Origin: Paludibacteraceae bacterium
Lineage (GTDB): Bacteria; Bacteroidota; Bacteroidia; Bacteroidales; Paludibacteraceae
Assembly (NCBI GenBank): GCA_905235505.1
Contig: CAJOMJ010000017.1
Location: 26,843 to 90,842 of the forward strand
DNA: 64,000 bases
Direction of reading: 5' to 3'
Positions 30,795-61,978 of this stretch are shown here, piece after piece; within the stretch, counting starts at the first letter, position 1; each line of letters starts with the position of its first letter. The notes beneath the pieces were generated by a model. The model ran no database searches. It was given only the letters and a program-made list of their open reading frames with translations, and was not told the origin of the DNA. Made by a program: the position numbers and the translations under genes.

Positions 30795-30803
30795 TAAGTA
30801 ACA

Positions 30804-44068: not shown

Positions 44069-44103
44069 CAGATTGTAGAGTATGATATTAACTTTCTATA
44101 CGT

Positions 44104-44922: not shown

Positions 44923-44937
44923 CTACGGCAAGTTGCG

Positions 44938-45393: not shown

Positions 45394-45415
45394 ACTTATA
45401 GTCTTTTGGTTGCAG

Positions 45416-45907
45416 TTACGATTTTCTTACGTACTCCGCAAAGGTGTAAGGGTAGGGATTCTGCTCGTCCGCTTCATGACGCCCGGAAGACACAAGTTGC
45501 CACAGCGCAGGGGCTATCGCAGGGAAGAAGGTGTCGGCATCTTGCCACGAGTGATGAATATGAGTGATATACAGTTTGTCTGCAAGAGGCATAAACTGCC
45601 GATATACCATACCTCCGCCAATGATGAAATTCTCTTTGTCGGGGTCTGCCATGCGTATCGCCTCGTCAATGGAGTAGGCCGACTCCGCCCCTTCGAACTG
45701 CTCGCCCGGGATGTCGGTTATCACGATGTTGCGACGGTTGGGCAGCGGGTGGCGGGGCAGGGAGAAAAAGGTGCGTTTGCCCATAATGACTGTGCAACCC
45801 GAAGTAATCTGCTTGAAATGTTTCAGGTCGTTGGGCAGATGACAAAGCAAATCGCCTTGTCTGCCTATCTCGTTGTTTTCCGCTATGGCTACTATGATGG
45901 ATATCAT
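45416..45907 (-). CDS. folA: Dihydrofolate reductase
   Basis: A 163-residue DHFR: MISIIVAIAENNEIGRQGDL, then LCHLPNDLKHFKQIT with the folate-binding acidic residue replaced in the usual position by Asn-Asp, VIMGKRTFFSL and FIIGGGMVYRQFM. It regenerates tetrahydrofolate consumed by ThyA, whose gene lies 59 bp upstream on the same strand. Confidence 0.94.
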   Translation of the reverse strand: MISIIVAIAENNEIGRQGDLLCHLPNDLKHFKQITSGCTVIMGKRTFFSLPRHPLPNRRNIVITDIPGEQFEGAESAYSIDEAIRMADPDKENFIIGGGMVYRQFMPLADKLYITHIHHSWQDADTFFPAIAPALWQLVSSGRHEADEQNPYPYTFAEYVRKS

Positions 45908-45966
45908 TTCTGTATATTGTTTTATAGTTGGCTATGATAAAGAGTGTTATGTCTATTCCTGCTGCG

Positions 45967-46761
45967 TTACACTGCGACTACTCCCGCAATATGAGGGTGC
46001 GGGTCGTAATCAACGAGCGTGAAGTCCTCATATTGGAAACCGAACAGGTCTTTTACCTCCTGATTGAGGAGCATCTTGGGTAATGGACGCGGCTCGCGGG
46101 TGAGTTGCAGACGTACTTGGTCAAGGTGATTGACGTAGATGTGGGCATCGCCCAAAGTATGCACGAAGTCGCCTGCACGAAGCCCTGTTACCTGCGCCAT
46201 CATGAGTAGCAGCAATGAGTAGGAGGCAATGTTGAAAGGTACACCCAGAAATACGTCTGCCGAGCGTTGGTACAGTTGCAGGGAGAGGCGGCCGTCTGCC
46301 ACATAGAACTGAAACAGAGTATGGCATGGCGGGAGAGCCATCTTGTTGACTTCTGCCACGTTCCACGCACTGACAATCAAACGGCGTGAGTCAGGGTTGT
46401 TCTTTATCTGGTCAACCAAGAGCGCAATCTGGTCGATGGTTCCTCCGTCGTAGTCGGGCCATGAGCGCCACTGATGACCGTAGATGGGACCAAGTTCGCC
46501 GTTCTCGTCTGCCCACTCGTTCCAGATGCGGACACCATGCTCCTGAAGCCAGTGCACATTGGTGTCGCCCTGCAGAAACCACAGGAGTTCGTATATTATA
46601 CTCTTCAAGTGCAGTTTCTTAGTGGTGAGCAGAGGAAAGCCTTCCTCAAGGTTAAAACGCATCTGGTGCCCGAAGACACTGATTGTGCCGGTACCAGTAC
46701 GGTCTTCTTTGCGAACTCCTTCAGTGAGTATGCGGTTGCATAAGTCAAGATACTGTTGCAT
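45967..46761 (-). CDS. thyA: Thymidylate synthase
   Basis: A 264-residue ThyA that makes dTMP from dUMP using methylene-tetrahydrofolate. The catalytic cysteine is in [13 protein letters not shown]; other motifs are [32 protein letters not shown], and [20 protein letters not shown]. The length matches E. coli ThyA exactly. It is the first gene of the thyA-folA-dtd operon with a clear promoter upstream. Confidence 0.97.
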
Positions 46762-46789
46762 GTCGGAATAGGGTTTGTTTTATCTGCTA

Positions 46790-46820
46790 CAAAGGTATAA
46801 CAAATAATACAAATACACAA
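46790..46820 (-). promoter_or_regulatory. Promoter for thyA-folA-dtd
   Basis: On the minus strand TTG (46820-46818) and TACCTTTG (46797-46790) with a 20-bp spacer, 28 bp before the thyA ATG. Confidence 0.8.
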
Positions 46821-46901
46821 GCATATTTTTCACGTAAGCACAAACAACCGATATAAAGGGTACTCCTAAGACTGCTATATATCGATTTCCCGCGTACGGA
46901 T

Positions 46902-46932
46902 TTGCGTATGTTAGAAAATGAGTGTATCTTTG
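46902..46932 (+). promoter_or_regulatory. Promoter for the M48 protease
   Basis: TTG at 46902-46904 and TATCTTTG at 46925-46932, 20-bp spacer. It overlaps an in-frame ATG at 46918, so translation must start at 46954. Confidence 0.8.
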
Positions 46933-46953
46933 TATGTTGAAAGATATTTGAAT

Positions 46954-48183
46954 ATGAGCACAACTATTTTTATTATCATCATCGTTATTGTGGCAGGCAA
47001 TTATCTGTTGGAGCAGTTGCTTGCCGTACTTAATCTTCGGGAGTCAAAGAAAGCGATTCCTGCTGAACTCAGCGACCTCTATACAACGGAGAAACGCAAC
47101 AGACAACGTGAGTATCAACGCACTAACATACGTTTCGGCACTGTTACCAACACGATAGGAGTAGCGTTCAGTCTCTTTATGATCTGCCTTGGTTTCGCTT
47201 GGCTGAACAACGGTCTGCTGTCTGTCACTGACCATCCGCTGTGGCACACACTGCTCTTCATCGCTGTCTATATCGCTCTTGAGACGCTGATAGAACTGCC
47301 TGCGTCCATCTACGACACTTTCAAGATAGAAACACGCTTCGGATTCAACACTACCACACCCAAGACTTTCCTCAAAGATACGGTCATCTCGCTGCTTCTT
47401 TCACTACTGCTGCAAGGTGTGCTGATGTCTGTCTTGGTGCTCGGATATATGTGGCAACCGGATTGGTTATGGCTCATTGCATGGGTGGTGGTGAGCATAT
47501 TCATGATATTCTTGAATATGTTTTACCCGCAACTCATTGTGCCGCTGTTCAATAAACAGACTCCTTTGCCCGAAGGTGAACTCAGAGAGGCAATAGAGAA
47601 GTTTGCAGAGAGAGTAGGGTTCAGCATTGAGAATATATACGTGATGGACTCCTCTAAACGCTCCACCAAGGCAAACGCTTATTTTACTGGGTTCGGGAAA
47701 AAGAAGCGTATTGTATTGTTCGACACATTGATAAAGCAACTGACCACTGACGAGATTGTGGCGGTTCTTGCGCACGAGATAGGACATCAGAAGCACAATC
47801 ACACAATAAAAGCTTTGCTCTCGTCGCTTACAAAAATGCTTCTGTTGTTTGTGTTGCTCGGTATTATCATCCGTTACGATGTGTTTGCTCTGGCAATAGG
47901 TTGCGAACCTACGTTTGTGGCAAAATTCATCGTCTTTATGATGCTCTATCAGCCTGTAACAGTGCTGCTCTCTATAATATCTAATATCGCCTCGCGCCGT
48001 CATGAATATGAAGCGGATGAGTTCGCAAAGCAGAACAATATGCAGACACAGCTGGTTTCCGCACTGAAGAAGATGACGGTGAATGACCTTGGTAACCCAA
48101 CACCTCATCCGTTTACAGTCTTTCTCACATATTCGCATCCTACACTCTCTGAGAGGATAAGACATTTGGAAACGAAAGAATAA
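46954..48183 (+). CDS. M48 family (Ste24-like) membrane protease
   Basis: A 409-residue integral membrane zinc protease. It has an N-terminal membrane helix, several more hydrophobic segments, the zinc motif HEIGH at residues 274-278, and the third ligand region EYEADEFAKQNNM. SSKRSTKANAYFTGFGKKKR before the zinc site and HPTLSERIRHLE at the end are Ste24/M48A signatures. The role in bacteria is likely quality control or cleavage of membrane proteins. The start follows from promoter placement. Confidence 0.92.
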   Translation: MSTTIFIIIIVIVAGNYLLEQLLAVLNLRESKKAIPAELSDLYTTEKRNRQREYQRTNIRFGTVTNTIGVAFSLFMICLGFAWLNNGLLSVTDHPLWHTLLFIAVYIALETLIELPASIYDTFKIETRFGFNTTTPKTFLKDTVISLLLSLLLQGVLMSVLVLGYMWQPDWLWLIAWVVVSIFMIFLNMFYPQLIVPLFNKQTPLPEGELREAIEKFAERVGFSIENIYVMDSSKRSTKANAYFTGFGKKKRIVLFDTLIKQLTTDEIVAVLAHEIGHQKHNHTIKALLSSLTKMLLLFVLLGIIIRYDVFALAIGCEPTFVAKFIVFMMLYQPVTVLLSIISNIASRRHEYEADEFAKQNNMQTQLVSALKKMTVNDLGNPTPHPFTVFLTYSHPTLSERIRHLETKE

Positions 48184-48188
48184 CAACT

Positions 48189-48713
48189 ATGCTGAATGAC
48201 TTTGTTGCAATAGATTTCGAGACTGCCAACGGAGAGAAGAGTAGTGTCTGCTCTGTTGGTGTAGTGATAGTGAAAGGTGGTGAGGTAGTGGATAGTTTCT
48301 ATAGTCTGATTCATCCGCGACCGGATTATTATGCGTGGTTCTGTCAGCAGGTGCACGGTCTTGGTTATGACGACACTTGTGATGCCTATGATTTTCCCGA
48401 GGTGTGGAGCGAGTTGACAGAGCGTGTACACAACTATTTCCCCTATATGGAGGACTCTGAAGTGCCCTTTGTGGCGCATAATGCCCGCTTTGACGAGGGA
48501 TGCTTGAAGGCGGTATTCAGGGCATACGGAATGGCATATCCTGACTATGTCTTTCTCGACACACTGTGTGCTTCGCGCCGTTGCTTCGGAAAGACTCTTC
48601 CCAACCACCAGTTGCAGACGGTGGCTTTAGCCTGCGGATTCGACCTCCGGCAGCACCACCATGCTCTCGCCGATGCCGAGGCATGTGCCGCAATAGCACT
48701 GAAAATATTGTGA
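48189..48713 (+). CDS. 3'-5' exonuclease, DnaQ/epsilon-like
   Basis: A 174-residue DEDDh exonuclease: FVAIDFETANGEKSSVCSVG has the first Asp-Glu pair, VAHNARFDEGCLKAVF the second acidic residue, and HHALADAEACAAIAL the final His and Asp. Stand-alone DnaQ-type nucleases act in replication proofreading or RNA/DNA trimming. It starts 5 bp after the M48 protease stop, so the two are co-transcribed. Confidence 0.86.
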   Translation: MLNDFVAIDFETANGEKSSVCSVGVVIVKGGEVVDSFYSLIHPRPDYYAWFCQQVHGLGYDDTCDAYDFPEVWSELTERVHNYFPYMEDSEVPFVAHNARFDEGCLKAVFRAYGMAYPDYVFLDTLCASRRCFGKTLPNHQLQTVALACGFDLRQHHHALADAEACAAIALKIL

Positions 48714-48956
48714 CAATGCTGATGAATCTCCGTCTCTGATAATGAGTCTCTGTCTCTGTTAATGAAGCACCATCTCCCCCCCCCGCACAATTACTATCCA
48801 CTTGTAGAGACATTTACTCAGATGTTGACCTTCCCTGCTCCGAAACAGTAGCCTTGGGCAGGAGATTATCATTTGGCTTAGTATCATGAAAATCTCCTGT
48901 CAGAATATAAGGAAATGACAAAAAATACATAAAAAGCAAAAAAAACGAAAAAAGTT

Positions 48957-48988
48957 GCGAAAGAGGTGATAGATTTCGCCCTTTTTTT
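48957..48988 (+). terminator. Terminator-like hairpin in the spacer
   Basis: GCGAAA (48957-48962) pairs with TTTCGC (48974-48979), followed by CC and seven T. It is about 240 bp beyond the nearest upstream stop, so it could end that transcript or a non-coding RNA. Confidence 0.5.
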
Positions 48989-49237
48989 GCCTATATATGG
49001 AGGGGTATATGTAATTGAGATATGGATGGTGGAAAATCATTATAGATTTCTATAGCCGATAAATACCTTACTGACCCTTATTGCTCATGGCAGAAAGGAA
49101 ACCACAAATATACTAACAAACTAATCAGACAATACATTTGAAAAGAAACTTACTATGACACAACTGCTGACTACACTATTACAACATAAAATGCACCGAA
49201 GACCGAGAGAAAAACTCAACTTTATGACACTGCATAA

Positions 49238-49267
49238 TTGCTTCTTCAAACATTCTTACTAATTTTG
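49238..49267 (+). promoter_or_regulatory. Upstream promoter of the DUF1016 gene
   Basis: TTG at 49238-49240 and TAATTTTG at 49260-49267, 19-bp spacer. It lies 170 bp before the ATG. Confidence 0.6.
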
Positions 49268-49312
49268 CACTTTGGTGTTGAACCTGCCCAGCAGTATTTT
49301 ATATGTTTAGAT

Positions 49313-49343
49313 TTGGATATATCATATACTTTTTGTACTTTTG
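49313..49343 (+). promoter_or_regulatory. Downstream promoter of the DUF1016 gene
   Basis: TTG at 49313-49315 and TACTTTTG at 49336-49343, 20-bp spacer, about 90 bp before the ATG at 49436. Confidence 0.7.
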
Positions 49344-49435
49344 TGCGAATTTTAGTTTATAAATACAAGCAGCCTCCATTGCGAGTACAGAACTCCTTAA
49401 AGCAAGGAGAAGAACGAGAGACAAGTTATTGGAAA

Positions 49436-50629
49436 ATGAGAGAAGAAAACGAAATATTAGGACAACCGCGTATTGTAAAATCCCACGATATACGTATCGA
49501 TGGTGACTATGCGGAATGGATTGCTGAGTTGAAGCATCGGTATCGTTCGGCGCAAGTGAAGGCATCTGTCCGTGTGAATGCGGAGAAGTTGCTCTTCAAT
49601 TGGGAACTGGGGCGTGACTTGGTGCAAAAGAAAGCCGAAGAACGTTGGGGCGCAGGAGTCGTCGAGCAAGTAAGCCTTGATCTACAGCGCGAGTTCCCGA
49701 ATGCAGATGGTTTTTCTGCGCGTAATATTTGGTATATGAAGCAGTGGTATCTGTTTTATTATCAAGAAAATATAAAACTGCAACAGTTTGTTGCAGAAAT
49801 AGGAGTTGAAAAACTCCACCAGACCGGTGGAGAAACAGAGAATTTAAAACTCCACCAACTTGGTGGAGAATTTCCATCTCCTTTTGCATGTGTACCGTGG
49901 GGACATCATATTGCTATCATTTCCAAATGCAAATCCGTGGATGAAGCGTTGTTCTATATTGATAAGACGGTAGAGCAGGGTATGAGTCGTGCGGCATTGG
50001 TGAATTGCATTAAGGCGAACTTATACGAGCATCAGGGAAAGATACTCAATAACTTTGCTGAGCACATGCCTGCTTTGCAAAGCAAACTTGTGCAAGAGGT
50101 GCTCAAAGAGAACTATGACTTCGGCTTTGCAACTGTCAAACATGAGATATATGATGAGCAGGAGTTAGAGGAAGCATTAAGCAAAAGTGTAACAGACCTG
50201 TTACTGGAACTCGGAACCGGTTTTGCTTTCATTGGACGACAGAAAGAACTGATAGCCTGAGATACAACGCGCAAAATAGACTTGCTGTTTTACCATATCC
50301 GCTTGCGCTGCTATGTAGTGTGCGAACTGAAGGCCAAAGCTTTTGAACCAGAGTTTGCAGGGAAACTGAATTTCTATGTTAATGCGGTGGATGATTTGTT
50401 GAAGACCAGTGATGATAATCCAACGATAGGCCTGCTTATTTGTTCGGATATGAATAAGGCGGATGTCCAATGGTCGTTCCGTGGCATCAGTACTCCGATG
50501 GGAGTGGCTACATATAATAATGTACGCATCAAAGACATGCTGCCTACACAGGAGCAATTGAAAGAACGTATGGAACTGCTGCAAAAAGAACTGCGCGAAA
50601 CCAAACGGTTGATGAAATCTAATAAGTGA
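49436..50629 (+). pseudogene. DUF1016 (YhcG-type) nuclease gene with in-frame stop
   Basis: The frame encodes a DUF1016/PDDEXK nuclease family protein of about 397 codons, broken by one in-frame TGA at 50258-50260. Before it: RIDGDYAEWIAELKHRYRSA, SARNIWYMKQWYLFY, VPWGHHIAIISKCK and the closing FAFIGRQKELIA. After it, in the same frame: KIDLLFYHIRLRCYVVCELK, FEPEFAGKLNFYVNAVDD and NPTIGLLICSD. The nuclease residues (D in IDLLFYH, E and K in ELKAK) are all after the stop, so a 274-residue product would lack activity. A single base change from GGA could explain it. Two tandem promoters lie upstream. Confidence 0.85.
49814..49868 (+). repeat. Two tandem hairpins inside the DUF1016 gene
   Basis: CTCCACC-N5-GGTGGAG occurs at 49814-49832 and again at 49850-49868, 36 bp (12 codons) apart. 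They encode the repeated peptide KLHQTGGE / KLHQLGGE, in a variable-length region of the family. Confidence 0.85.
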
Positions 50630-50677
50630 TAAGCGAGTGTAGAGCGGGAGATAACCGAGAGAAAAATGTAAATATAT

Positions 50678-52249
50678 ATGAAAATTTACCACGGAAAAAT
50701 TCTGACGATAGATGAAAAGAACAGCATCTATCAATATCTTGTAGAAGATGCAGGACGGATTGTTTATGTAGGAAATGAATGTCCTCCGGAGAAATACTCC
50801 AAAGCAGAAAAAGTAGAGTTAGACGATAAGGTGCTTCTTCCATCCTTCGTGGATACGCATCAGCATTTTGCATCGTTTGCTCTCTTTCATTCAGGACTGA
50901 ATGTGATGGAAATCACCTCGAACAAAGAGATGATGAAGGCAATTAAAGAGTATGCCGACAAGACAGAAGACAAGATATTATTCGCATTTGGTGCATCCCC
51001 ATACTCTGTAAAAGAGGGAATACTGATTAACCGCGAAGAATTGGATAGCGTTTGTCCCGACCGACCCATTATGTTGGTGAAATATGATGGTCATGCTTGC
51101 GTGGTTAATACCAAATTGCTGAAAAAATTAGACGGAAAATTGAAAAAGCTCCGCGGCTATCATCCGGAAAGCGGAGAGATGAACCAAGAGGCCTTCTTTG
51201 CATGTTCTGACTATATATCTAATTCTGTATCCATACCTAAATTGATACGGAATATGCAACGCGCAGTGGATTATGAGGCTTCAAAAGGGATCGGAATGGT
51301 ACACACGGTTAGTGGTGTCGGTTTCCCGCTAAATGCAGATATTACAATAGAGAAACTCTTTGCAAAAAGTGTACAGGGAGGCTTTCAGATACGGGTATTC
51401 CCTCAATCGATGGATACAACTGTAGCAACAAGCAGAAATATCCCCAGAATAGGCGGTTGTTTCGAGTGTGCGTTGGACGGTTGCTATGGTTCGCAAGACG
51501 CAGCATTAATAGAGCCTTATGAGAATGATAAAAGTAATTATGGCGTATTGTACAAAACCGATGAAAAAGTCATTGAGTTTTGCAAGAAAGCCAATAGGAT
51601 GGGATTGCAGATAGAAATGCATGCAATAGGCGATAAGGCGTTTGCGCAAGCGACGAAAGCGTTGAAGGCTGCATTAGATGATTATCCCAGAACAGATCAT
51701 CGGCACGGCATCATTCACGCTTGCTTGCCAACAAAAGAAGGAACTGACATTTGTGCGAAATATCATATTAACCTATTGATGCAGTCCGCTTTTGATAACT
51801 GGCGTCAAGAACCACCGGAGTATACGGAGAGCATTTTAGGTAAGGAGCGCAATGCGCAACTGAATCCGGTGAAGACATTTTTGGAAAAAGGCTGTGTAAT
51901 AGGTCAAGGAAGTGACGCCCCTTGTACTAATCCCGATCCGATAGATTGGTTGTACCATGCATGCAATCATACAAATCCGAGTCAATCCGTCAGTGTCTAT
52001 AACGCATTACGGATGTTGACATATAATGGTTGTTATGCTACTTTTGACGAAAAAGAACGCGGTACATTAGAGGTCGGCAAGATAGCAGATATGGTCATCC
52101 TTTCTGCCAATCCCTATAAACTGAATCCGCAAGAATTGCGGCAGTTAAAGGTGGAGAAACTGATTCTAAATGGTGAGGAATACAAACCTCAAAATCAATC
52201 TATGATGTCCGTTCTTTGGAAGGGATTGACCAACAAACAGAAATATTAA
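50678..52249 (+). CDS. YtcJ-like amidohydrolase
   Basis: A 523-residue metal-dependent amidohydrolase of the YtcJ/Amidohydro_3 type. Motifs: GKILTIDEKNSIYQYLV in the small beta-sandwich, LLPSFVDTHQHFASF (HxH metal motif), IEMHAIGDKAFAQATKAL, HRHGIIHACLPT, and IGQGSDAPCTNPDPIDWLYH with the late aspartate. The reaction is hydrolysis of an amide, formamide or related bond; the substrate is unknown. It has no promoter of its own and lies 48 bp after the broken DUF1016 gene and 19 bp before the synthetase-cytidylyltransferase fusion, so a joint pathway is likely. Confidence 0.82.
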   Translation: MKIYHGKILTIDEKNSIYQYLVEDAGRIVYVGNECPPEKYSKAEKVELDDKVLLPSFVDTHQHFASFALFHSGLNVMEITSNKEMMKAIKEYADKTEDKILFAFGASPYSVKEGILINREELDSVCPDRPIMLVKYDGHACVVNTKLLKKLDGKLKKLRGYHPESGEMNQEAFFACSDYISNSVSIPKLIRNMQRAVDYEASKGIGMVHTVSGVGFPLNADITIEKLFAKSVQGGFQIRVFPQSMDTTVATSRNIPRIGGCFECALDGCYGSQDAALIEPYENDKSNYGVLYKTDEKVIEFCKKANRMGLQIEMHAIGDKAFAQATKALKAALDDYPRTDHRHGIIHACLPTKEGTDICAKYHINLLMQSAFDNWRQEPPEYTESILGKERNAQLNPVKTFLEKGCVIGQGSDAPCTNPDPIDWLYHACNHTNPSQSVSVYNALRMLTYNGCYATFDEKERGTLEVGKIADMVILSANPYKLNPQELRQLKVEKLILNGEEYKPQNQSMMSVLWKGLTNKQKY

Positions 52250-52268
52250 TCAATAAACATATAAGATT

Positions 52269-53738
52269 ATGGTAGACAAGAATTATTGCATGAGTTCGTT
52301 TCTGACGTTCCGTTACATCGAAGATCCTAAGATGGAGTTCTATGAGGGCTTGCATCATACGGGAGATATGCCTTATCCTGAAGAGAAGAAAGTATTGGTG
52401 CGAACCGCGCAAGATATAGCAAACGCCTATAGAGAGATGTTTGCCGCCAAGGAGAAAGAAGCAAAATTAGGTATATTGTTGTCCGGCGGTATGGACTCAG
52501 GTTGCCTCGCTGCGTTTATGAAACCCGGCACAGATGCATATACATTCCGTTTCTTGGATGCAACCTATTCTACAGGGGATATGGAACGTGCAAAGTTGTA
52601 TGCAGAGAAATACAAATTGAACTTGCACTATGTAGATATTAATTGGGAAGTGGTGCAAAAGAATCTTCCTGCGCTGATGAAAACGAAAGGAGCTCCGGTC
52701 CATTCGATAGAGCCGCAAATCATGGAAGCGGCTTTGCAAGCCAAGAAGGACGGAGTGGAGATGATGGTGGCAGCCGATGGAAGCGATCTTGTGTTTGGAG
52801 GTATGGACAAGATGCTTTCCAAAGACTGGACTTTCGATGAGTGGGTTGAATTCTATACATTCCTTGACCCGAAAAAAGTTCTTCGTGAACCGGTGTCAAT
52901 GATAGATATCTATGAACGCTTCCGCTTGCCGGATAACATGATTGATTTCTTACGGTTCCAAGATGAGATTTTCGCCCATGAGTCCAGCGCGTCATATTGC
53001 AATGCTTTTATTACGGCAGGAATGAAATATACACCATTCTTTGATCCATCGGGAATGGTGAAGATGGCAGAGCCGTTGGATCTGAAACGCGTTCGTAGCG
53101 GGGAATCAAAATATCTTATAAGGGAATTATTCCATATGTGCTATCCGGAATTCCCGATTCCGGAAAAAGTGCCTATGCCACGTCCTGTGGATATCTATTT
53201 CAAGGATTGGCAAGGTCCTACACGCCCGGAGTTCCGCAGAGATATAGATATATCTGCTCTTACGGGCAATCAGAAATGGTTGTTGTATTGTTTGGAGCAA
53301 TTCCTGAATATGCACGAGCCGCTCAAAATAGGTTATACCACGGGAGTCTATGACCTTTTCCATATAGGTCACCTAAACTTGCTGCGCAAGGCAAAAGCGC
53401 AATGCGACTACCTCATAGTAGGTGTATCTACGGATGACTTGGTGGAGTATAAGGGCAAGCGCTCTGTCATTCCGTTTGAGGAACGTAAAGAGATAGTAGG
53501 TGCTATTAAGTATGTGGATGAGGTAGTTATTCAAGAAGACATGGATAAACTTGGTGCTTGGAAGAAATATCATTTTGATGTTATGTTCGTGGGTGATGAT
53601 TGGAAGGGAACCGAAAAATGGAATAAGATTGAGTCCGAACTCGCAGGGGTAGATGCAAAAGTTGTCTATTTCCCTTATACAAAGGGTACCAGTTCCACTC
53701 TTATCAATGAAACCTTAAATAAATTACGTACCATATGA
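52269..53738 (+). CDS. Asparagine-synthetase domain fused to cytidylyltransferase
   Basis: A 489-residue two-domain protein. Residues about 10-345 resemble the synthetase half of AsnB: SSFLTFRYIEDPKMEFYEGL is the linker strand that follows the glutaminase domain in AsnB, LSGGMDS (71-77) is the PP-loop, and AADGSDLVFGGMDKML the second ATP site. The glutaminase domain with its N-terminal Cys is absent. Residues about 352-489 are a TagD-type cytidylyltransferase: TTGVYDLFHIGHLNLLRKAK with HIGH at 365-368, FVGDDWKG, and TKGTSSTLI. I infer that the first domain adenylates an acid and forms an amide, and the second makes a CDP conjugate for the LicD gene that overlaps it by 4 bp. Confidence 0.85.
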   Translation: MVDKNYCMSSFLTFRYIEDPKMEFYEGLHHTGDMPYPEEKKVLVRTAQDIANAYREMFAAKEKEAKLGILLSGGMDSGCLAAFMKPGTDAYTFRFLDATYSTGDMERAKLYAEKYKLNLHYVDINWEVVQKNLPALMKTKGAPVHSIEPQIMEAALQAKKDGVEMMVAADGSDLVFGGMDKMLSKDWTFDEWVEFYTFLDPKKVLREPVSMIDIYERFRLPDNMIDFLRFQDEIFAHESSASYCNAFITAGMKYTPFFDPSGMVKMAEPLDLKRVRSGESKYLIRELFHMCYPEFPIPEKVPMPRPVDIYFKDWQGPTRPEFRRDIDISALTGNQKWLLYCLEQFLNMHEPLKIGYTTGVYDLFHIGHLNLLRKAKAQCDYLIVGVSTDDLVEYKGKRSVIPFEERKEIVGAIKYVDEVVIQEDMDKLGAWKKYHFDVMFVGDDWKGTEKWNKIESELAGVDAKVVYFPYTKGTSSTLINETLNKLRTI

Positions 53739-54673
53739 ACTTACCAAAGATCCCTGATGTCTTTTTTCAGAATCAGGTTATATGCGACTATCAGGTTAAT
53801 TCCCGCATGAAAAAAATATGGGCAGTTGAATTTGATTTGCTTAATGAGTTAATCAAAGTATGTGAGGAATACCATCTAACATATTACTTATTCGGAGGAA
53901 CAATGCTTGATGCTGTTAGACACCAAGGGTTTATACCATGGGATAATGATGTAGATGTGATATTACCAAGAAAAGATTATGATAAATTATTGGAAATAGG
54001 GCCAAAAGTATTTAAAGCTCCATACTATTTTCAAACACCTAAGACAGAAGATGGTAAATATTTCTACTTTTTTGCCAAACTATGTAATAGTCTAACAACG
54101 GGACGTAGCGATGTCGAATATAAGGCAGGACAGAATTGTGGTATATTCATAGATATTTTCTTCTTGGATAATTTGCCTGACGGTAAATTGGAACGTTGGT
54201 GGTATGTACATAAACTTAGTAGAATAACACGTATGGCACGCTTTTGTGGGGCTTCTATTTTGTTTACTCCAAAGAAAGGACTAATCAACATTCTGAAAAT
54301 GAAAATTAACAAACTGATATACAAATTAAGTGGTAGCCCTTCGCCGAGTAAATTATTTGATAGATATAACCATGTGGCAGGGAAATATAAAGACAAAGAA
54401 ACTGAAGAATGGGGACAAATAGTATGGGGGTATAGAGATAGTGTAACATGGAAAAGACATGATTGGAAGTCATCAATACTCGCATCTTTTGGTCCACTCG
54501 AAACCGTTATCCCGGAAAAATATGATATAGTATTAAGAAAGCAATATGGAGATTATATGCAATTTCCTCCCAAAGAACAACGCGTATGTCACGAATACTA
54601 CGATTTCGATGCCGAGACACCATATAAAGAATACTTTGAACGAAAAACGAATGGTCGAAACTATGATACCTAA
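53735..54673 (+). CDS. LicD family phosphotransferase
   Basis: A 312-residue LicD enzyme: YYLFGGTMLDAVRHQGFIPW then DNDVDVILPRKDYDKLLE. It should move a phospho-substituent from a CDP carrier to a glycan. It overlaps the fusion gene by 4 bp (ATGA) and the following GT2 by 11 bp, so the CDP donor, the transferase and a glycosyltransferase are translationally coupled. It differs in sequence from the LicD at 30024. Confidence 0.87.
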   Translation: MNLPKIPDVFFQNQVICDYQVNSRMKKIWAVEFDLLNELIKVCEEYHLTYYLFGGTMLDAVRHQGFIPWDNDVDVILPRKDYDKLLEIGPKVFKAPYYFQTPKTEDGKYFYFFAKLCNSLTTGRSDVEYKAGQNCGIFIDIFFLDNLPDGKLERWWYVHKLSRITRMARFCGASILFTPKKGLINILKMKINKLIYKLSGSPSPSKLFDRYNHVAGKYKDKETEEWGQIVWGYRDSVTWKRHDWKSSILASFGPLETVIPEKYDIVLRKQYGDYMQFPPKEQRVCHEYYDFDAETPYKEYFERKTNGRNYDT

Positions 54674-55721
54674 GATAATCCACATCGTCATGACGCCGAC
54701 ACGCAATGAGGCATGGGTGATACGGGCGTTTCTGGAATCCACCACACGCTGGGCGGATTATATTATCATCTGTGACCAGTTTTCTACTGATGGGACGAGG
54801 GAGATTGTCGCGGAATATGCTGCGCAGACCGCATCGCTGACAGAAGACAGACCGTTAGCACTGACAGAAAAGAAACGGGCGGAGGTAATACTTATTGATA
54901 ACCCGAATACAGAGTTCAATGAGGCAGAGCGGCAACGTATACTCGTTGCCAAGGCGCGTGAGGTAGCCGCAGGGCGTGATGCACTGCTTTGGGGGTTGGA
55001 TGCCGATGAGATATTGGCTGCCAACGCCTTTGAGACTGACGACTGGCAGAAGATACTTCATTCCAAACCCGGTGCAGTATTTTGGTTCCAATGGGCACAA
55101 CTGACGCACGACAAACAGCATTACTATAATCCGCTAGCGTTCTATCCTTTGCTCTTCCACGATGATGGTGTAGAACCCCACGGCAATTATGTGCGCGAGA
55201 TGCACTCCATGCGTATTCCTTACCCATTGGACGAGCATGATATGACACATGTGCAGGATTTCCGCGTGCTGCATCTTGGACCGGCTCCTCTAAATCGTGT
55301 CCATGCCAAGGAGCGGTTCTATATGTTTGTTGATTGGCAGGTCAATCACCGTCCGCCCTATACGATGGGACGCAGCTATATAGGCAGCAATGCTTATCCT
55401 GCGGAGCAGTTTGATTTGCCTGAGGAGTGGATATATACCCATGAGAAGGACAGTTGGAGCCTATGGGAGAATGTAGAATTGGACGAGACGCATTGCTGGA
55501 TGGATGATTATATCTATGAGCGATTGGACAAGTTCCCGAAATCCACACTCGCCAAACTACCCATCTGGACGCCTGAGTTTATGGATTACTATAGCATCCA
55601 AGACCCCCGTCCGTGGTATGTGCGGTTGGTGCACAAGTACATTGACCTCACACAACCTCACAAGAATAACATCTGCGTTAGAGCAATAGACAAGTTGCTA
55701 CGTAAGTTCAGCAAACATTAA
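54663..55721 (+). CDS. GT2-like glycosyltransferase
   Basis: A 352-residue GT-A enzyme: IIHIVMTPTRNEAWVIRAFL, DYIIICDQFSTDGTREIV and the metal-binding region LLWGLDADEILAANAF. HNHRPPYTMG and the mature C-terminal basic tail are unique. It starts at MIPKIIHIV (54663), inside the end of the LicD gene. It likely builds the sugar that receives the LicD-transferred group. It is more GC-rich than the LicD gene before it. It converges on tdh. Confidence 0.8.
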   Translation: MIPKIIHIVMTPTRNEAWVIRAFLESTTRWADYIIICDQFSTDGTREIVAEYAAQTASLTEDRPLALTEKKRAEVILIDNPNTEFNEAERQRILVAKAREVAAGRDALLWGLDADEILAANAFETDDWQKILHSKPGAVFWFQWAQLTHDKQHYYNPLAFYPLLFHDDGVEPHGNYVREMHSMRIPYPLDEHDMTHVQDFRVLHLGPAPLNRVHAKERFYMFVDWQVNHRPPYTMGRSYIGSNAYPAEQFDLPEEWIYTHEKDSWSLWENVELDETHCWMDDYIYERLDKFPKSTLAKLPIWTPEFMDYYSIQDPRPWYVRLVHKYIDLTQPHKNNICVRAIDKLLRKFSKH

Positions 55722-55804
55722 AATCAATCATGGTGAACCGCCAAATCAGCACATTCGAGACATCAACAGACTGTCGAAGCCTTGTTCCGAAGATTATTCA
55801 GTTA

Positions 55805-56830
55805 TCACCACTCAAGGAGTACTTTGCCGCATTGACCTGATTCCATGAGATCGAAGGCTTCCTGATACTGTTCAAACGGGAACCTATGTGTAATCACCGG
55901 TGACAGATCCAAGCCGCCGAGCAACATCTGCTCCATCTGATACCATGTCTCCCACATGCGTCTGCCTGTGATACCCTTGATGGTTAGCGCATTGAAGATG
56001 ACATCCGACCAATTGACCTTCGTGTCAGATGGGAGAATGCCCAACTGGGCGATGTTGGCACCCTTATACATGTGCTGTACCATATCGTTGAAAGCGGCAG
56101 GGGCACCGGACATCTCAAGTCCTACATCGAAACCTTTGATATTCAACTGCTTCATTGCATCTTCCACGGTCTCTCCTCGTGAACCGTCAACCGTGAGAGT
56201 GGCTCCCATACGCTTGGCGATGTCAAGGCGAAGCGGGTTGAGGTCGGTGACCACGATGTTCTTCGCGCCTGCAAAACGGCATATCCCGGTTGCCATTGTG
56301 CCAATCAGCCCGGCACCTGTGATGAGCACATCTTCTCCAAGAACGGGGAAGGCAAGGGCGGTATGTGTGGCGTTGCCGAATGGGTCCATGATTGCGGCGA
56401 AGTCGTCGGGTATGGAGTCTTTGAGTTTGACAATATTGCTCTCGGGAATAGTAACATACTCTGCAAAAGCACCGTCTTTGCCAAAGATACCTACCGACAG
56501 AGAATGTTCGCACACGTGCCCCATGCCTCTGCGGCAGTTTCTGCAATGACCACATACGATATGCCCCTCGGCAGTTACGCGCTCGCCAACATGCACGTTT
56601 CTCACACCGGCACCTGTCTCTACCACTGTGCCGACAAACTCATGACCCATGGTGTAGGGTGGGGTGCAGTGGGTCTGACTCCACTCGTCCCACTTGTACA
56701 TGTGCAAGTCTGTGCCACAGATGGCCGCTTTCTTGACTTTTATAAGAACATCGTTCACCCCCACCTCGGGCATCTGAACATCCTCCATCCAGATTCCACG
56801 CTCGGGGTAACGCTTAACCAAGGCTTTCAT
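55805..56830 (-). CDS. tdh: L-threonine 3-dehydrogenase
   Basis: A 341-residue zinc medium-chain dehydrogenase oxidising L-threonine to 2-amino-3-oxobutyrate. CGTDLHMYKWDEW and TMGHEFVGTVVETGAGV hold the catalytic zinc ligands; HIVCGHCRNCRRGMGHVC is the structural zinc site; VLITGAGLIGTMATGICRFA is the NAD Rossmann loop. It is the second gene of a kbl-tdh unit (66-bp gap), the standard threonine-to-glycine pathway. Confidence 0.95.
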   Translation of the reverse strand: MKALVKRYPERGIWMEDVQMPEVGVNDVLIKVKKAAICGTDLHMYKWDEWSQTHCTPPYTMGHEFVGTVVETGAGVRNVHVGERVTAEGHIVCGHCRNCRRGMGHVCEHSLSVGIFGKDGAFAEYVTIPESNIVKLKDSIPDDFAAIMDPFGNATHTALAFPVLGEDVLITGAGLIGTMATGICRFAGAKNIVVTDLNPLRLDIAKRMGATLTVDGSRGETVEDAMKQLNIKGFDVGLEMSGAPAAFNDMVQHMYKGANIAQLGILPSDTKVNWSDVIFNALTIKGITGRRMWETWYQMEQMLLGGLDLSPVITHRFPFEQYQEAFDLMESGQCGKVLLEW

Positions 56831-56896
56831 ATTGAAGAATTATATTAGAGATTTGAACACTATTATATTATAATTATACCGTTGCGCTGTCAGATG

Positions 56897-58096
56897 TTAT
56901 GCTAATACGCCTAATTGTTTGCCTACTTTGACAAATGCTGCAACACCCTTGTCGAGTTGCTCTTTTGTATGCGCTGCACTTACCTGAACGCGGATACGCG
57001 CCTGACCCTGAGGCACAACAGGATAATAGAATCCTGTAACATATATGCCCTCATCTTGCAATGCTGCTGCAAACTCCTGACTGAGACGTGCATCGTACAG
57101 CATAACTGCACAGATAGCCGATTGTGTGGGTTTGATGTCGAAACCTGCCGCCTTCATCCTTGTGACAAAATACTCTGTGTTCTCATGCAGACGGTCTTGC
57201 AGAGTGTTGTCGCGTGTAAGAAGTTCGAAGGTCTTCAACCCTGCTGCCGCAATCATAGGCGGGATACTGTTGCTAAACATATACGGACGCGAACGCTGGC
57301 GAAGCATGTCGATAATCTCCTTTCTTCCGGTAGTAAAACCTCCGACAGAGCCTCCAAACGCCTTGCCCAGTGTGCCGGTGATAATCTCTATCTGTCCGCG
57401 CAGATTGTACAACTCTGTTACGCCATGGCCTGTCTTGCCTACAACACCTGCCGAGTGACTCTCATCTACCATGACGAGGGCATTGTATTTCTTTGCCAGT
57501 TCGTATATCTTGTCAAGCGGACATACATTGCCGTCCATTGAGAATACACCATCTGTGGCAATGATGCGGAAACGCTGCTCCTGAGCCTTCTTCAGTTGCT
57601 CCTCGAGGTCGGCTACATCGCCATTCTTATAGCGGTAGCGCACTGCCTTGCAAAGACGCACACCGTCGATGATGCTGGCATGATTGAGTGCATCGGAGAT
57701 GATGGCATCTTCGTCGGTGAGCAGAGGTTCGAACAGACCTCCGTTGGCATCGAAACAAGCGGCATAGAGTATGGTGTCTTCTGTGCCAAAGAAGTCGCTG
57801 ATGGCTTTCTCCAACTGCTTGTGAGTGTCCTGAGTACCGCAAATGAAGCGCACTGACGCCATTCCGTAGCCTCTCTTGTCCATGCGCTCTTTGGCTGCTT
57901 TGATGAGTTCCGGATTGTCGGCAAGGCCAAGGTAATTGTTGGCGCAGAAGTTGATTACTTCTGTCTCTTTGCCGTTGTTGTCAACTTTGATTCCGCTTGA
58001 CTGCGGACTGACGATTACACGCTCGTTTTTGTAGAGCCCTGCTTCACGAATTGACTGCAGTTCCGCCTGCAGATGTTTCTGAAATTCTGTGTACAT
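56897..58096 (-). CDS. kbl: Glycine C-acetyltransferase (KBL)
   Basis: A 399-residue PLP enzyme of the alpha-oxoamine synthase family that cleaves 2-amino-3-oxobutyrate with CoA to glycine and acetyl-CoA. The PLP lysine is in TGTLGKAFGGSVGGF; NFCANNYLGLADNPELI and VMVDESHSAGVVGKTGHGV are further signatures. It is first in the operon with tdh. Confidence 0.95.
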   Translation of the reverse strand: MYTEFQKHLQAELQSIREAGLYKNERVIVSPQSSGIKVDNNGKETEVINFCANNYLGLADNPELIKAAKERMDKRGYGMASVRFICGTQDTHKQLEKAISDFFGTEDTILYAACFDANGGLFEPLLTDEDAIISDALNHASIIDGVRLCKAVRYRYKNGDVADLEEQLKKAQEQRFRIIATDGVFSMDGNVCPLDKIYELAKKYNALVMVDESHSAGVVGKTGHGVTELYNLRGQIEIITGTLGKAFGGSVGGFTTGRKEIIDMLRQRSRPYMFSNSIPPMIAAAGLKTFELLTRDNTLQDRLHENTEYFVTRMKAAGFDIKPTQSAICAVMLYDARLSQEFAAALQDEGIYVTGFYYPVVPQGQARIRVQVSAAHTKEQLDKGVAAFVKVGKQLGVLA

Positions 58097-58161
58097 GGTA
58101 TGTTAGTGTTTATAGTTGTTTTGTGTTAATCTGTTCTTTGAAAGAATATCTTTTGAGCACA

Positions 58162-58192
58162 CAAAGGTAGTGCAAGATTTTGGATTTTGCAA
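58162..58192 (-). promoter_or_regulatory. Promoter for kbl-tdh
   Basis: On the minus strand TTG (58192-58190) and TACCTTTG (58169-58162), 20-bp spacer, 65 bp before the kbl ATG. It is back to back with the C10 protease promoter. Confidence 0.8.
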
Positions 58193-58201
58193 GTAGAATA
58201 T

Positions 58202-58232
58202 TTGCCCCTGTCGTTTTTTTTCTTTACCTTTG
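58202..58232 (+). promoter_or_regulatory. Promoter for the C10 protease
   Basis: TTG at 58202-58204 and TACCTTTG at 58225-58232, 20-bp spacer, 55 bp before the ATG at 58288. Its -33 box lies 9 bp from the divergent kbl promoter. Confidence 0.8.
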
Positions 58233-58287
58233 TGCGCTCTTAGAGAATGAATATATAAATGTGAACCCCAAAATATCAATCTATACG

Positions 58288-60393
58288 ATGAGAAAGTCTA
58301 TATTTATACTGCTGGCTGTTGCGATATGCAGTATCTGTTTTGCAGAAGAACGTACTGAGAAAGAGGCTGCTGAGATTGCAGCTTCATTCACCAACAATCA
58401 TCCCCAACTGAGTATGGCGCGCAAGTCGCCCCGCAAGTCTGTTGATATGCGTCTTGTTCAGACACGCAAACAGACAGGTAGAGAAAAGCCCGCATACTAC
58501 GTGTTCAACCAAGACGACAACTCAGGATTCGTCATCGTCTCGGGCGATGACAGAACAGATGATGTGCTCGTATATAGCAACGAAGGTAGTTTCAATCCGG
58601 AGACGGTTAATCCTAATTTCCGCTTCTGGCTTGACTATCTTGCTGAGTCAATATCTACTATTGATAGCCTTGATGATGCCGGCGTAACTTCGTTAAAGAC
58701 CAATGCCGCTTCTGTTACTGAAATAAAGCCTCTTCTCGGCAATACGGCATGGGAACAGGGCACGCCCTACAATAATCTCTGCCCGATAGACATTTGGGAC
58801 AATACACGCTCTTATACCGGTTGTGTGGCTACGGCTGCTGCTCAGATTATGCGCAAATGGGAGTGGCCCAAGGTCGGCGTCGGTAGTAAAACATATACTT
58901 GGGAAAACTACGCATACACTAAGGTGCTTCAGCGGGTAGAACTCACTGCCAACTTCGGCGAGACGGAATACGACTGGGATAATATGCTCGACCACTACCA
59001 AGGTGTTAAATACAACGAGCAACAGGCACTTGCCGTGGCAACGCTGATGTATCACTGCGGTGTGGCATGCGAGATGATGTACGGGGGCGACAAAGCGTAT
59101 GGCAGCGGCTCATTCACCGAGTTGATGGCTGACGGGTTAAACAAGTATTTCTCCTATACCTATGACCGTCTTCTCAGTACCTATTCCGAAAGAGAATATA
59201 CATCTAATGGTAAAACCCCCATGCCCGAAGGAATGACTGTTGAATGGAAAGCCCCGGCAAGTCGCTTTGAAGAACTCTTTAATGCAGACCTTGAGGCGGG
59301 GAGACCTATTATTTTGGGTGGTGTTGATAGTAGTGAAGGAGGACATGAGTTCGTTTGTGATGGTCGTGATGCCGACGGTAAGTTTCATATAAACTGGGGT
59401 TGGGAAGGAGTCGGCAATTCTTATTGCTCTATCTCCTTGCTCCGTCCGAAAGGCGAATCTGCGAACTTCTCATCTTCTATTGATGCTCTGATCGGGCTTG
59501 AACCTGTAACTATAGACACCGTGTTTGTAACGGGCGTGGAGCTGGCACCTGAAAAACTTGAACTCAAGATAAACGAGAAACAGACTCTCGCTGCAACCGT
59601 CTCTCCTCAGAACGCTACTGTGAAGAGACTTACGTGGCATAGCGGCGATAGCACTATTGCCGTGGTTAATAGCAATGGAAAAGTGAGGGGCGTATCTCAA
59701 GGTACAACAGTCATTACGGTGACCACGGTTGAAGGTGGCTTTGAGGCGCAATGTGCTGTAACTGTAACAAACGAGGTTGTGCCGATAGAGGAGTTTACTC
59801 TTGTGACCGATATAAACGAACTCTCTGCAGGAGACGAGTTGATAATGGTTGCCTTACATTCATCCGCACCTCAGGCGGCTACGAAGAATATCTCCGCCAA
59901 TGCTTCTGTGTCATATATGGGAGTGGAGAAGGTTTCAATAACCGAAAACACCATCACTCTTGAAGAGGGTAGCAACGTGGCTGTATTTACACTCGCCGGC
60001 AACTCTGATGCATGGACTCTTACCAATCAGGACGGGGCTTTGCTCGGCACTACTGCTGTGAAGAAACTTAGTTGGACAGAAGGCGTTACCGACTGGAATA
60101 TCTCCATCTCTGACACCAAGGCTACTATCGTGCCGGTTGCTGACAATGCCGAAGACTACGGGCGTATGATTTACAACTACAACAACGGTAACCCCCGTAT
60201 GTCTCTCTACACCTCTAATACAAGTTCCGCTATGTTGCTGCCGCAGATTTATGCCCGACCGCGAGACCCAAAACAACCTGCGGCACTCGACAACACGAGA
60301 ACAGTTCCTGCTGTACACAAACTGATACGTGACGGCAGGATACTGATTATTCGTGACGGAGTAACCTACGATATTCTGGGCAGGAGACTGTAA
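58288..60393 (+). CDS. Secreted C10 (streptopain-like) cysteine protease
   Basis: A 701-residue exported protease. Signal peptide MRKSIFILLAVAICSICFA, then a Spi-type propeptide (YYVFNQDDNSGFVIVSGDDR), then the C10 catalytic domain with Cys179 (SYTGCVATAAAQIMRKW), His353 (GGHEFVCDGRD) and HINWGWEG. A Big2 Ig-like domain (VTGVELAPEKLELKINEKQT ... AQCAVTVTN) and a second beta-rich domain follow. The C-terminus ends RDGVTYDILGRRL, resembling a short sorting tail. It probably degrades external proteins at the cell surface. The ATG at 58288 was chosen as the signal-peptide start. Confidence 0.9.
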   Translation: MRKSIFILLAVAICSICFAEERTEKEAAEIAASFTNNHPQLSMARKSPRKSVDMRLVQTRKQTGREKPAYYVFNQDDNSGFVIVSGDDRTDDVLVYSNEGSFNPETVNPNFRFWLDYLAESISTIDSLDDAGVTSLKTNAASVTEIKPLLGNTAWEQGTPYNNLCPIDIWDNTRSYTGCVATAAAQIMRKWEWPKVGVGSKTYTWENYAYTKVLQRVELTANFGETEYDWDNMLDHYQGVKYNEQQALAVATLMYHCGVACEMMYGGDKAYGSGSFTELMADGLNKYFSYTYDRLLSTYSEREYTSNGKTPMPEGMTVEWKAPASRFEELFNADLEAGRPIILGGVDSSEGGHEFVCDGRDADGKFHINWGWEGVGNSYCSISLLRPKGESANFSSSIDALIGLEPVTIDTVFVTGVELAPEKLELKINEKQTLAATVSPQNATVKRLTWHSGDSTIAVVNSNGKVRGVSQGTTVITVTTVEGGFEAQCAVTVTNEVVPIEEFTLVTDINELSAGDELIMVALHSSAPQAATKNISANASVSYMGVEKVSITENTITLEEGSNVAVFTLAGNSDAWTLTNQDGALLGTTAVKKLSWTEGVTDWNISISDTKATIVPVADNAEDYGRMIYNYNNGNPRMSLYTSNTSSAMLLPQIYARPRDPKQPAALDNTRTVPAVHKLIRDGRILIIRDGVTYDILGRRL

Positions 60394-60402
60394 TAGCCTT
60401 GT

Positions 60403-61857
60403 TTACAACTCCACTTCTTCGCCCTTCTTCGGAATGCTTATTCCGCGGAAGCCGGCTTCGTAGAGATGGTCTTTGTAGGTTTCTGCTGCTACTTGTTCGC
60501 CGTGTACAATGAAGGTGTGGCTAATCTGCGTGACATCTTGGGTAGAGAGATAATCTGTCATCTCTTTCCAGTCGCCGTGACCGGAGAAACCGTCTATGCG
60601 GCGTATGTCTGCTCTGACCTTGTGCTCCTCGCCGAAGATGGAGATATACTTCGGAGAATCCGTCGTAGTATGATTCTCTATGAAGGCACGCGGACTGTCT
60701 CCCAAACCCGCAAGATTCAACAGTCGGGCACCGAGAGATGTGGGGGTGCAGTAGCCTACTATAAGTATTGTAGTCCTCGGGTCTTCGATATGGTTCGCCA
60801 CATGGTGCTTCACACGACCTGCCTCCAGCATGCCCGAAGCAGAGATGATGATTGCAGGACGAGGGTCTGTGTTCAGGCGCTTTGACTCGCGAATATCGGT
60901 TATATAATGCAGGGTATTGAAACCGAACGGGTCAGGGTCATGACGCATCACTTGCTGCACTTCTTCGTTCAGCTGGTCGGTATATTGACGGAAAATCTCT
61001 GTTGCATTAACTGAAAGCGGACTGTCAACATATACGTCCACGTGGGGCAGAAAGCCTGCGTTATACAAGTTGTTAAGCACATAAACTATCTCTTGTGTCC
61101 TACCTACGGAGAAACTCGGTATTATCAATTTGCCTTGCTTCTTTACACACGTGTCGCGCACTATCTCAAGCAACTCGTTCTCCGTAACCTCCCTCTCGTC
61201 GTGAAGACGGTCGCCGTAGGTGGATTCGCAAATCAGATAGTCGCATTGCGGAAACGGCTTCGGAGGACACAGAATATGACTATGGGGGCGACCTATGTCA
61301 CCTGTGTATGCAAGGTGTTTGACCTCGCCAAACTCGGTGATGGTGAAATTGGCTATCGCACTGCCTAACATGTGACCGGAGTCGGTGAAACGGAGCATCA
61401 CACCCTCGCACAGGAAATAGTCGCGGTCGTACTCCACTGTCTTGAACAGACGCATGCAGCGTTGTGCCTGTTGGGCATCGTACAGCACATCTGCCGGAGG
61501 AAGCCCTTTCTTCTGCTGTTTGCGGTTGTACCACTTGATATCAAGCGCCTGAATATATGCCGTGTCAAGCAGCATTATCGAACACAACTCCTTCGTTGCT
61601 GGTGTGCATACCACCGTGCCCTTGAATCCTTTTCTATATAGATATGGTATCAAACCGCTGTGGTCGATATGTGCATGAGTGAGAACGATATAGTCTATCT
61701 CGCTTGGGTCAAAGCCCAAATCGCGGTTTGCACGGTCGGTATCCATACCTTTACCTTGATACATTCCGCAGTCAAGAAGAATATGCTTTCTTCCTACTGT
61801 CAAAAGATGTTTGCTGCCCGTAACTTCCTGAGCCGCTCCTAAAAATTGAAGTTTCAT
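60403..61857 (-). CDS. Beta-CASP metallo-beta-lactamase RNA hydrolase
   Basis: A 484-residue MBL-fold protein with a beta-CASP insertion, the YSH1/CPSF-73-like branch of bacterial RNases. Motifs: LDCGMYQGKG, LTHAHIDHSGLIPYLYRKGF (HxHxDH), TDSGHMLGSAIANF (motif 3), TGDIGR, ESTYGDRLH, IISASGMLEAGRVKHH and the late VHGEQVA histidine region. It should cut RNA endo- or exonucleolytically. It converges on the C10 protease with 9 bp between stops and has its own promoter. Confidence 0.9.
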   Translation of the reverse strand: MKLQFLGAAQEVTGSKHLLTVGRKHILLDCGMYQGKGMDTDRANRDLGFDPSEIDYIVLTHAHIDHSGLIPYLYRKGFKGTVVCTPATKELCSIMLLDTAYIQALDIKWYNRKQQKKGLPPADVLYDAQQAQRCMRLFKTVEYDRDYFLCEGVMLRFTDSGHMLGSAIANFTITEFGEVKHLAYTGDIGRPHSHILCPPKPFPQCDYLICESTYGDRLHDEREVTENELLEIVRDTCVKKQGKLIIPSFSVGRTQEIVYVLNNLYNAGFLPHVDVYVDSPLSVNATEIFRQYTDQLNEEVQQVMRHDPDPFGFNTLHYITDIRESKRLNTDPRPAIIISASGMLEAGRVKHHVANHIEDPRTTILIVGYCTPTSLGARLLNLAGLGDSPRAFIENHTTTDSPKYISIFGEEHKVRADIRRIDGFSGHGDWKEMTDYLSTQDVTQISHTFIVHGEQVAAETYKDHLYEAGFRGISIPKKGEEVEL

Positions 61858-61884
61858 GGTATAGAGTGTTTACTATTCTGTTTG

Positions 61885-61915
61885 CAAAGATAGTACAATA
61901 CTTTCATATTTGCAA
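61885..61915 (-). promoter_or_regulatory. Promoter for the beta-CASP hydrolase
   Basis: On the minus strand TTG (61915-61913) and TATCTTTG (61892-61885), 20-bp spacer, 28 bp before the ATG. Confidence 0.8.
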
Positions 61916-61958
61916 GCAAAATAAGTTTTCTAATATACAGGAATTGCTGAATCAGTAT

Positions 61959-61978
61959 CTAAACCACACTAAACATCA
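61959..61978. repeat. 10-bp CTAAACCACA repeat, two units, at a stop codon
   Basis: CTAAACCACA and CTAAACATCA. The last three bases are the stop codon (TGA) of the minus-strand gene. They are the inverse complement of the 12-unit array at 63261-63380 on the other side of that gene. Confidence 0.75.

Follow-up and report, generated by a model that had tools for sequence, protein, structure and literature searches.

What is made when an asparagine synthetase-like enzyme is fused to a cytidylyltransferase and followed by a LicD-family phosphotransferase is the question raised by a locus of a Paludibacteraceae bacterium, situated at 50678-55721 on the + strand of a 64,000-nucleotide stretch of contig CAJOMJ010000017.1 (the window). 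Four open reading frames (ORFs) encode, in order, an amidohydrolase (AMH), the fusion, LicD and a family 2 glycosyltransferase (GT2). The fusion is composed of an AsnB-type half (ASN) and a cytidylyltransferase half (CT). As described in an initial annotation of the window, AMH and the fusion are separated by 19 bp, while the fusion and LicD overlap by 4 bp, and LicD and GT2 by 11 bp, the latter given a GT2 start at ATG 54663 (its longest ORF begins at 54546, and searches were run from 54651).

We find that the recurring unit is not the set of four genes but a glutaminase-less ASN, a TagD-like CT and a CDP-dependent phosphotransferase, in which the AsnB-type partner has been exchanged. Concerning its chemistry, each step of which we infer from sequence, our best reading is that a surface glycan receives a head group that is amidated and CDP-activated, a class that we consider as apt to prove wrong as right.

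Recurrence of the synthetase-cytidylyltransferase unit

As initially annotated, the fusion combines PF00733 (52.1 bits at residues 64-201, cut-off 21) with PF01467 (69.8 bits at 356-479), with no Pfam match to the glutaminase domain PF13537 at E 0.01, and both the SGGMDS loop and the HIGH motif are present in its translation. The same architecture recurs, ASN and CT being fused at 24 loci including the window, all assigned to Paludibacteraceae or 'uncultured Bacteroidales'. Since the reading frame is free of stops and the fusion is found at 23 other loci, it is no assembly artefact. In Clostridia, Gastranaerophilales, Treponema and other Bacteroidales the two are unfused neighbours, in either order, and separate genes are also found within the window's own family (L097-L099, L102). 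The carriers further include Lactiplantibacillus plasmids and two viral contigs.

Loci were collected by scanning GTDB contigs with the whole fusion as query, which yielded 46 loci with some CT enrichment built in, as one of the six peptide patterns lies in CT; genome searches, L. plantarum plasmids and the two viral contigs provided further ones. Out of 65 loci supplied, 62 were kept for counting, after dropping L045, L046 and L047, in which no ASN match exceeded 500 nt; loci that repeat a counted place, loci with CT alone and controls were also left out. Neighbours had to lie on the same strand, within 1.5 kb for CT and 4 kb for the transferase, limits that we set ourselves. CT accompanies ASN at 55 of the 62 loci, and a transferase at 50, being LicD at 33 and a PF04464-type gene at 17. 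A strict count gives 46/62, leaving out L004, L036, L038 and L097, whose gene of this type misses the Pfam score (21.0 vs 22.1 in L097; no Pfam match in L036). Pfam confirms PF04464 at L015, L017, L110, L091, L114, L032, L021, L034, L040, L095 and L103, and the LicD of L007 lies slightly under its score (22.2 vs 22.6). Control loci obtained with an ASN-only query (L091-L095, L114, L122, L123, L125) have CT within 1.5 kb in nine cases out of nine, eight of them on the same strand; in L093, CT and the PF04464 gene are on the opposite strand. Two fused loci outside the 62 (L059 and L060, genomes G381 and G504) have one PF04464-type and one LicD gene, and no AMH.

CDP-linked donors are used by LicD and PF04464 enzymes alike, hence this association most naturally points to a CDP donor. 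The expectation that the neighbours of the fusion would recur thus holds for CT and for a LicD or PF04464 gene, and fails for AMH (8/62) and for GT2, whose only relative among 48 clustered loci (E 1e-8, more than half its length) is its own copy. GT2 is, as far as seen, specific to the window locus, and the four-gene operon was rejected as a conserved unit, as the same four genes do not reappear together.

The ASN/CT module is an accessory trait. Within the family, 20 of 250 genomes match at E 1e-60; within the order 4 of 295 do, where ASN was matched only in the window's genome and in G227. With carriers counted, the families of two Clostridial carriers gave 5/200 and 5/150 (four genomes being shared), and a sample of a Clostridial phylum 2/398. 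Six of 72,556 plasmid records match in L. plantarum, two of which were inspected. No ASN match was obtained in phage records. At 4557-7131, the viral contig L122 (IMGVR_UViG_3300021399_000106, 166,546 bases) has CT and ASN, with a Stealth-like gene after them, and its CT is 81% identical to an Oribacterium CT. Its CT and ASN show six in-frame TGA codons at conserved Trp sites, so this contig probably decodes TGA as Trp; TAG recoding was ruled out, the in-frame stops being TGA. The second, candidate viral contig (L123, 3873-7305) carries LicD, CT, ASN and DUF362. The genes around several of the fused Bacteroidales loci encode SIS-CBS, HAD, IspD and heptose-type domains, surroundings that we read as a lipopolysaccharide (LPS) core region.

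Exchange of the AsnB-type partner

Sequence and, less well, fold relate the ASN half to asparagine synthetases. In a 31-row alignment, S72, G74, D76 and S77 of the PP-loop are invariant and G73 nearly so. Lys281 is invariant as well, and its proposed pairing with K449, the catalytic Lys of E. coli AsnB, was made by eye (EKHILR vs SKYLIR) and is unplaced by hhalign. The basic residues R274, R276, R285, K300 and R305 are likewise invariant and are candidates for binding the phosphate of the substrate. The best PDB match of the ASN profile is E. coli AsnB (1ct9, E 1.1e-6). A model of the fusion built from 52 rows (predicted local distance difference test 90.2, predicted template modelling score 0.87) retrieves with Foldseek human asparagine synthetase for the ASN half, at E 2e-7 and a TM-score of only 0.36, and TagD-type enzymes (1coz, 2b7l) for the C-terminal half. 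Judged by eye, the first 40 residues of the fusion look similar to the end of an AsnB glutaminase domain. ASN shares with E. coli AsnB the PF00733 core and the PP-loop and, by eye, may also have its catalytic Lys, but differs in having no glutaminase domain, in an identity of about 25% over part of the domain, and in being fused to or adjoining a cytidylyltransferase.

At the 23 other fused loci CT is 83-94% identical to that of the window, and ASN 84-91% in subtype A (L003-L009) and 54-62% in subtype B (16 loci). In the ASN tree subtype A falls beside Lachnospiraceae, apart from subtype B, and a single origin of the ASN half across the 24 fused loci is rejected (approximately unbiased test, p 1.3e-40), whereas for the 16 subtype-B rows the same test does not establish that they are split further (p 0.136). 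The exchange of the ASN half is old, since four-fold sites are near saturation throughout (identity 25-57%, most 26-39%), and a recent swap is thereby ruled out. In a divergent ASN branch (37-41% identity; L091-L093, L097-L099, L123) a DUF362 (PF04015) gene adjoins ASN.

AMH follows the ASN subtype, occurring at subtype A loci exclusively. It was found in 4 of 40 genomes (20 with and 20 without the module), all of subtype A, and in 7 of 40 module genomes, which are those of L003-L009; three genomes are common to both sets by coordinates, giving eight AMH genomes in total with the window's. These are all the subtype-A Bacteroidales genomes found, and no other genome searched has AMH. Its carriers form one clade, so AMH was probably gained once, and none of the eight has lost it. 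It thus belongs with subtype A and not with the ASN/CT module as a whole, and with 8 of 62 loci and one ASN subtype it cannot be the general source of ammonia for a glutaminase-less ASN, a supply that the initial annotation had suggested it might provide. An amidohydrolase fragment adjoining ASN on an L. plantarum plasmid was considered as an AMH and discarded, as it has no similarity to it.

A more distant case of partner exchange is provided by E. coli. A DNA search with a Gastranaerophilales ASN/CT stretch matched, via its CT part only, 7 of 5,426 E. coli genomes, all seven in the O82 O-antigen cluster. In this cluster (NCTC9082), galF is followed by a full-length AsnB (GATase_7/PF13537 plus Asn_synthase, with N-terminal MCG) that overlaps CT, and a PF04464 transferase is located further along. 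The O82 CT is 68% identical to the window CT over 134 residues, and the O82 AsnB 25% identical to ASN over 175. The O82 cluster thus resembles the window in combining an AsnB-type enzyme, a closely related CT and a CDP-dependent phosphotransferase, and differs in that the genes are separate, AsnB keeps its glutaminase, PF04464 replaces LicD and no AMH is annotated. In the CT tree, the O82 CT clusters with ASN-linked CTs (support 91/90, under the starred level of the tool). Similarly, a Bacteroidales genome (L108) has a 612-residue full-length AsnB beside CT (59-60% identity). That distinct AsnB types accompany related CTs is the strongest argument that the amide would belong to the CT product. 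O82 itself may perhaps bear a phosphate-linked glyceric acid derivative. The O-antigen paper PMC4732683 makes no mention of O82.

Two side observations concern this cluster. An IS1 element breaks the AsnB-like gene in one E. coli O82 genome (L140, 6700-9000), and two O82 records carry a wzx annotated as broken.

Proposed chemistry and its alternatives

In the proposed mechanism, ATP would activate in the ASN half the carboxylate of a small phosphorylated acid, which ammonia would amidate; the ammonia would be free for the window fusion and derived from glutamine for the full-length O82 counterpart. The CT half would then join the amidated phosphate to CMP, yielding a CDP donor from which LicD, or elsewhere a TagF/TarF-type PF04464 enzyme, would move the amide-bearing phosphate to a glycan, forming a phosphodiester. 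In subtype A, AMH may add a further step, perhaps freeing ammonia or an amine. The idea, first proposed for the window, of a small molecule that is amidated and CDP-activated as the product is strengthened by the O82 cluster and by two Clostridial phosphonate loci (L037, L042), the only 2 of the 62 with a phosphoenolpyruvate (PEP) mutase. The mutase scores 405.8 and 419.8 bits, respectively (cut-off 319.55), and in L037 it is fused to a CT-like domain. Both loci also encode an aspartate aminotransferase of type Ic (551.8 and 519, NCBIfam cut-off 435), a MobA-like nucleotidyltransferase and a GNAT protein. L042 has two ASN genes and, beside ASN, an amino acid racemase that comes near cysteate racemase but stays below its cut-off (156.6 vs 190). 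According to passages of the phosphonoalamide work, PEP mutase and an AAT-family transaminase lead to phosphonoalanine (PMC11867202), which would be the acid in these two loci. Phosphonoalanine, phosphoserine and 3-phosphoglycerate share a short-chain carboxylate ending in phosphorus, and ASN is proposed to amidate such acids.

At the window locus no PEP mutase lies within 8 kb of ASN (42001-62000). No further biosynthetic gene was seen to recur beside ASN/CT in most clustered loci, in which no systematic scan was made, so a common metabolite may serve as the acid. Our best guess, and a clearly doubtful one, is 2- or 3-phosphoglycerate, giving CDP-glyceramide and glyceramide-phosphate substituents, with phosphoserine as second candidate. 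Parts of two published accounts describe related compounds, as CpgD makes CDP-glycerate from phosphoglycerate (PMC12275187) and D-glyceramide 2-phosphate is present in Providencia alcalifaciens O22 (PMC6222762).

An unlikely alternative is that subtype-A ASN couples an organic amine, instead of ammonia, to the phosphoacid. In Lachnospiraceae the amine could be an amino alcohol supplied by a pyridoxal phosphate (PLP) enzyme and a PHP-domain protein, and in Bacteroidales AMH could release it from an amide. This would fit the gene order CT, HisC/CobD-like PLP enzyme, ASN found in L025, L026, L028 and L041, with a PHP-domain (PF02811) protein after ASN in all of these but L028, the restriction of AMH to the eight subtype-A Bacteroidales genomes, and the single ASN clade shared by these and Lachnospiraceae. 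However, in L027, which branches first in this clade (next fork 91/71), ASN lacks a neighbouring PLP enzyme and the genome lacks AMH, and the full-length AsnB partners of O82 and L108 point to ammonia.

We give similarly little credence to the possibility that ASN and CT perform unrelated steps of one glycan, ASN amidating an acidic sugar, with ordinary glycerol phosphate or some similar alcohol coming from CT and LicD. AsnB-family enzymes do amidate acidic sugars in some O-antigen clusters, and by fold no solved structure is closer to CT than TagD: CT keeps the CTP_transf_like fold with HxGH (Pfam, Foldseek), and shares PF01467 and the HIGH motif with TagD/TarD (1coz, 2b7l). It differs from these in travelling with AsnB-type enzymes and in its score against the glycerol-3-phosphate cytidylyltransferase model TIGR01518, 100.9 bits for a cut-off of 165.4, which does not mark the fusion as an ordinary CDP-glycerol enzyme; its being an already characterised enzyme of that kind is what the initial annotation had named as a possible refutation. 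The separation of the two activities is also opposed by the gene fusion at 24 loci, although L097-L099 and L102 of the same family are unfused, by the ASN genes adjoining PEP mutase and transaminase, and by the viral contig L122, where CT and ASN are accompanied by the Stealth-like gene and a further ORF, and no sugar-acid gene was recognised in the 11 kb seen.

Several data weigh against an amidated CDP donor. A same-strand CT is missing at 7 of the 62 ASN loci and a transferase at 12; some of these partner-less loci are contig ends, but not L037, L039 and L093. CT relatives 50-59% identical to the window CT have no AsnB partner in view at L045, L046, L109 and L141 (loci of 4-20 kb), and the same is true, by annotation, of the CT-like genes of L142 and L143. 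Only 7 of 28 inner branches of the CT tree are starred, and L108 has no firm place in it. Beside the O82 cluster lies ugd, so the O82 AsnB could amidate a uronic acid instead. The O82 ugd and the CT-like genes with no AsnB in view also speak for ASN and CT as separate steps. Finally, no enzyme assay or glycan structure for any carrier was found in the literature.

That the fusion is simply the asparagine synthetase of the cell, with CT attached by accident, is highly improbable: the source genome (about 92% complete) lacks AsnA and yields neither another PF00733 protein nor a second match to ASN, but among 30 same-genus genomes listed 10 have the fusion and 20 do not, a further 210 genomes outside that list have no match, and the partnership with CT recurs across phyla.

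Window features and known decoration systems

The features of the window are collected in the table. The label YtcJ for AMH was given by the initial annotation, the family basis here being PF07969. A scan for promoters and terminators scored no better than shuffled sequences. Directly upstream of AMH, at 49238-50629, a DUF1016/YhcG-type nuclease gene is split across two ORFs (Pfam), and in L013 and L024 longer relatives of this gene precede the fusion. A polysaccharide cluster of the window (30024-31256) has a second LicD (256 aa) and a second TagD-like CT (150 aa), about 42-44% identical to the fusion CT.

Table. Coordinates of the four-gene locus and of the motifs of the fusion, in window numbering.
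Feature	Coordinates	Strand	Details
AMH, YtcJ-like amidohydrolase	50678..52249	+	523 aa; PF07969 (Amidohydro_3) 173.8 bits vs 29.7 gathering score
Fusion, ASN and CT halves	52269-53738	+	489 aa; PF00733 and PF01467
ASN half, AsnB-type ATP-pyrophosphatase/synthetase domain without glutaminase	52269..53318	+	PF00733
SGGMDS PP-loop, residues 72-77	52482..52499	+	translation
Lys281, proposed match to AsnB catalytic Lys	53109..53111	+	by-eye alignment
CT half, TagD-like cytidylyltransferase	53319..53738	+	PF01467 69.8 bits; Foldseek 1coz/2b7l
HIGH motif of CT, residues 365-368	53361-53372	+	translation
LicD-family phosphotransferase	53735..54673	+	312 aa; PF04991 133.4 bits vs 22.6 gathering score
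GT2 glycosyltransferase	54663..55721	+	PF13704 (Glyco_tranf_2_4) 30.8 bits; PF00535

As the initial annotation had supposed, no described pathway with this combination was found in the openly licensed papers searched, nor any description of an AsnB-like/cytidylyltransferase fusion or module. The LicC/LicD phosphocholine system is alike in placing a CMP/CDP-activated small head group on a surface glycan, with LicD-like genes nearby. The same is true of the PntC/LicD 2-aminoethylphosphonate system, as far as its account in PMC6697681 goes; compared with both, the window locus has a TagD-type CT, a proposed amidating enzyme and no PEP mutase. CpgD is similar in the CTP activation of phosphoglycerate but is of the COG1213 type, not TagD-like, and acts on a lipid acceptor, not a glycan, and no amidation appears in the parts of its description consulted (PMC12275187).

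Tentatively, and with somewhat less than even confidence, we propose that the module defines a new class of nucleotide-activated donors, namely CDP-linked carboxamides such as CDP-glyceramide or CDP-serinamide, with CMP-phosphonoalaninamide as the counterpart at the phosphonate loci, which would be made by exchangeable AsnB-type and conserved CT halves in bacteria, plasmids and phages. If the proposed chemistry is true, an amide-bearing head group would join choline, ethanolamine, glycerol and ribitol among the CDP-activated decorations of LPS, capsules and teichoic-like polymers. It could also explain the phosphate-linked glyceramide of O-antigens, for example that of P. alcalifaciens O22, and CDP-carboxamides would then fill a gap in how bacterial glycans come by this substituent, the biosynthesis of which is missing. 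The compact versions in E. coli O82 and Lactiplantibacillus plantarum, whose glycans are open to analysis, provide a genetic handle on this module.

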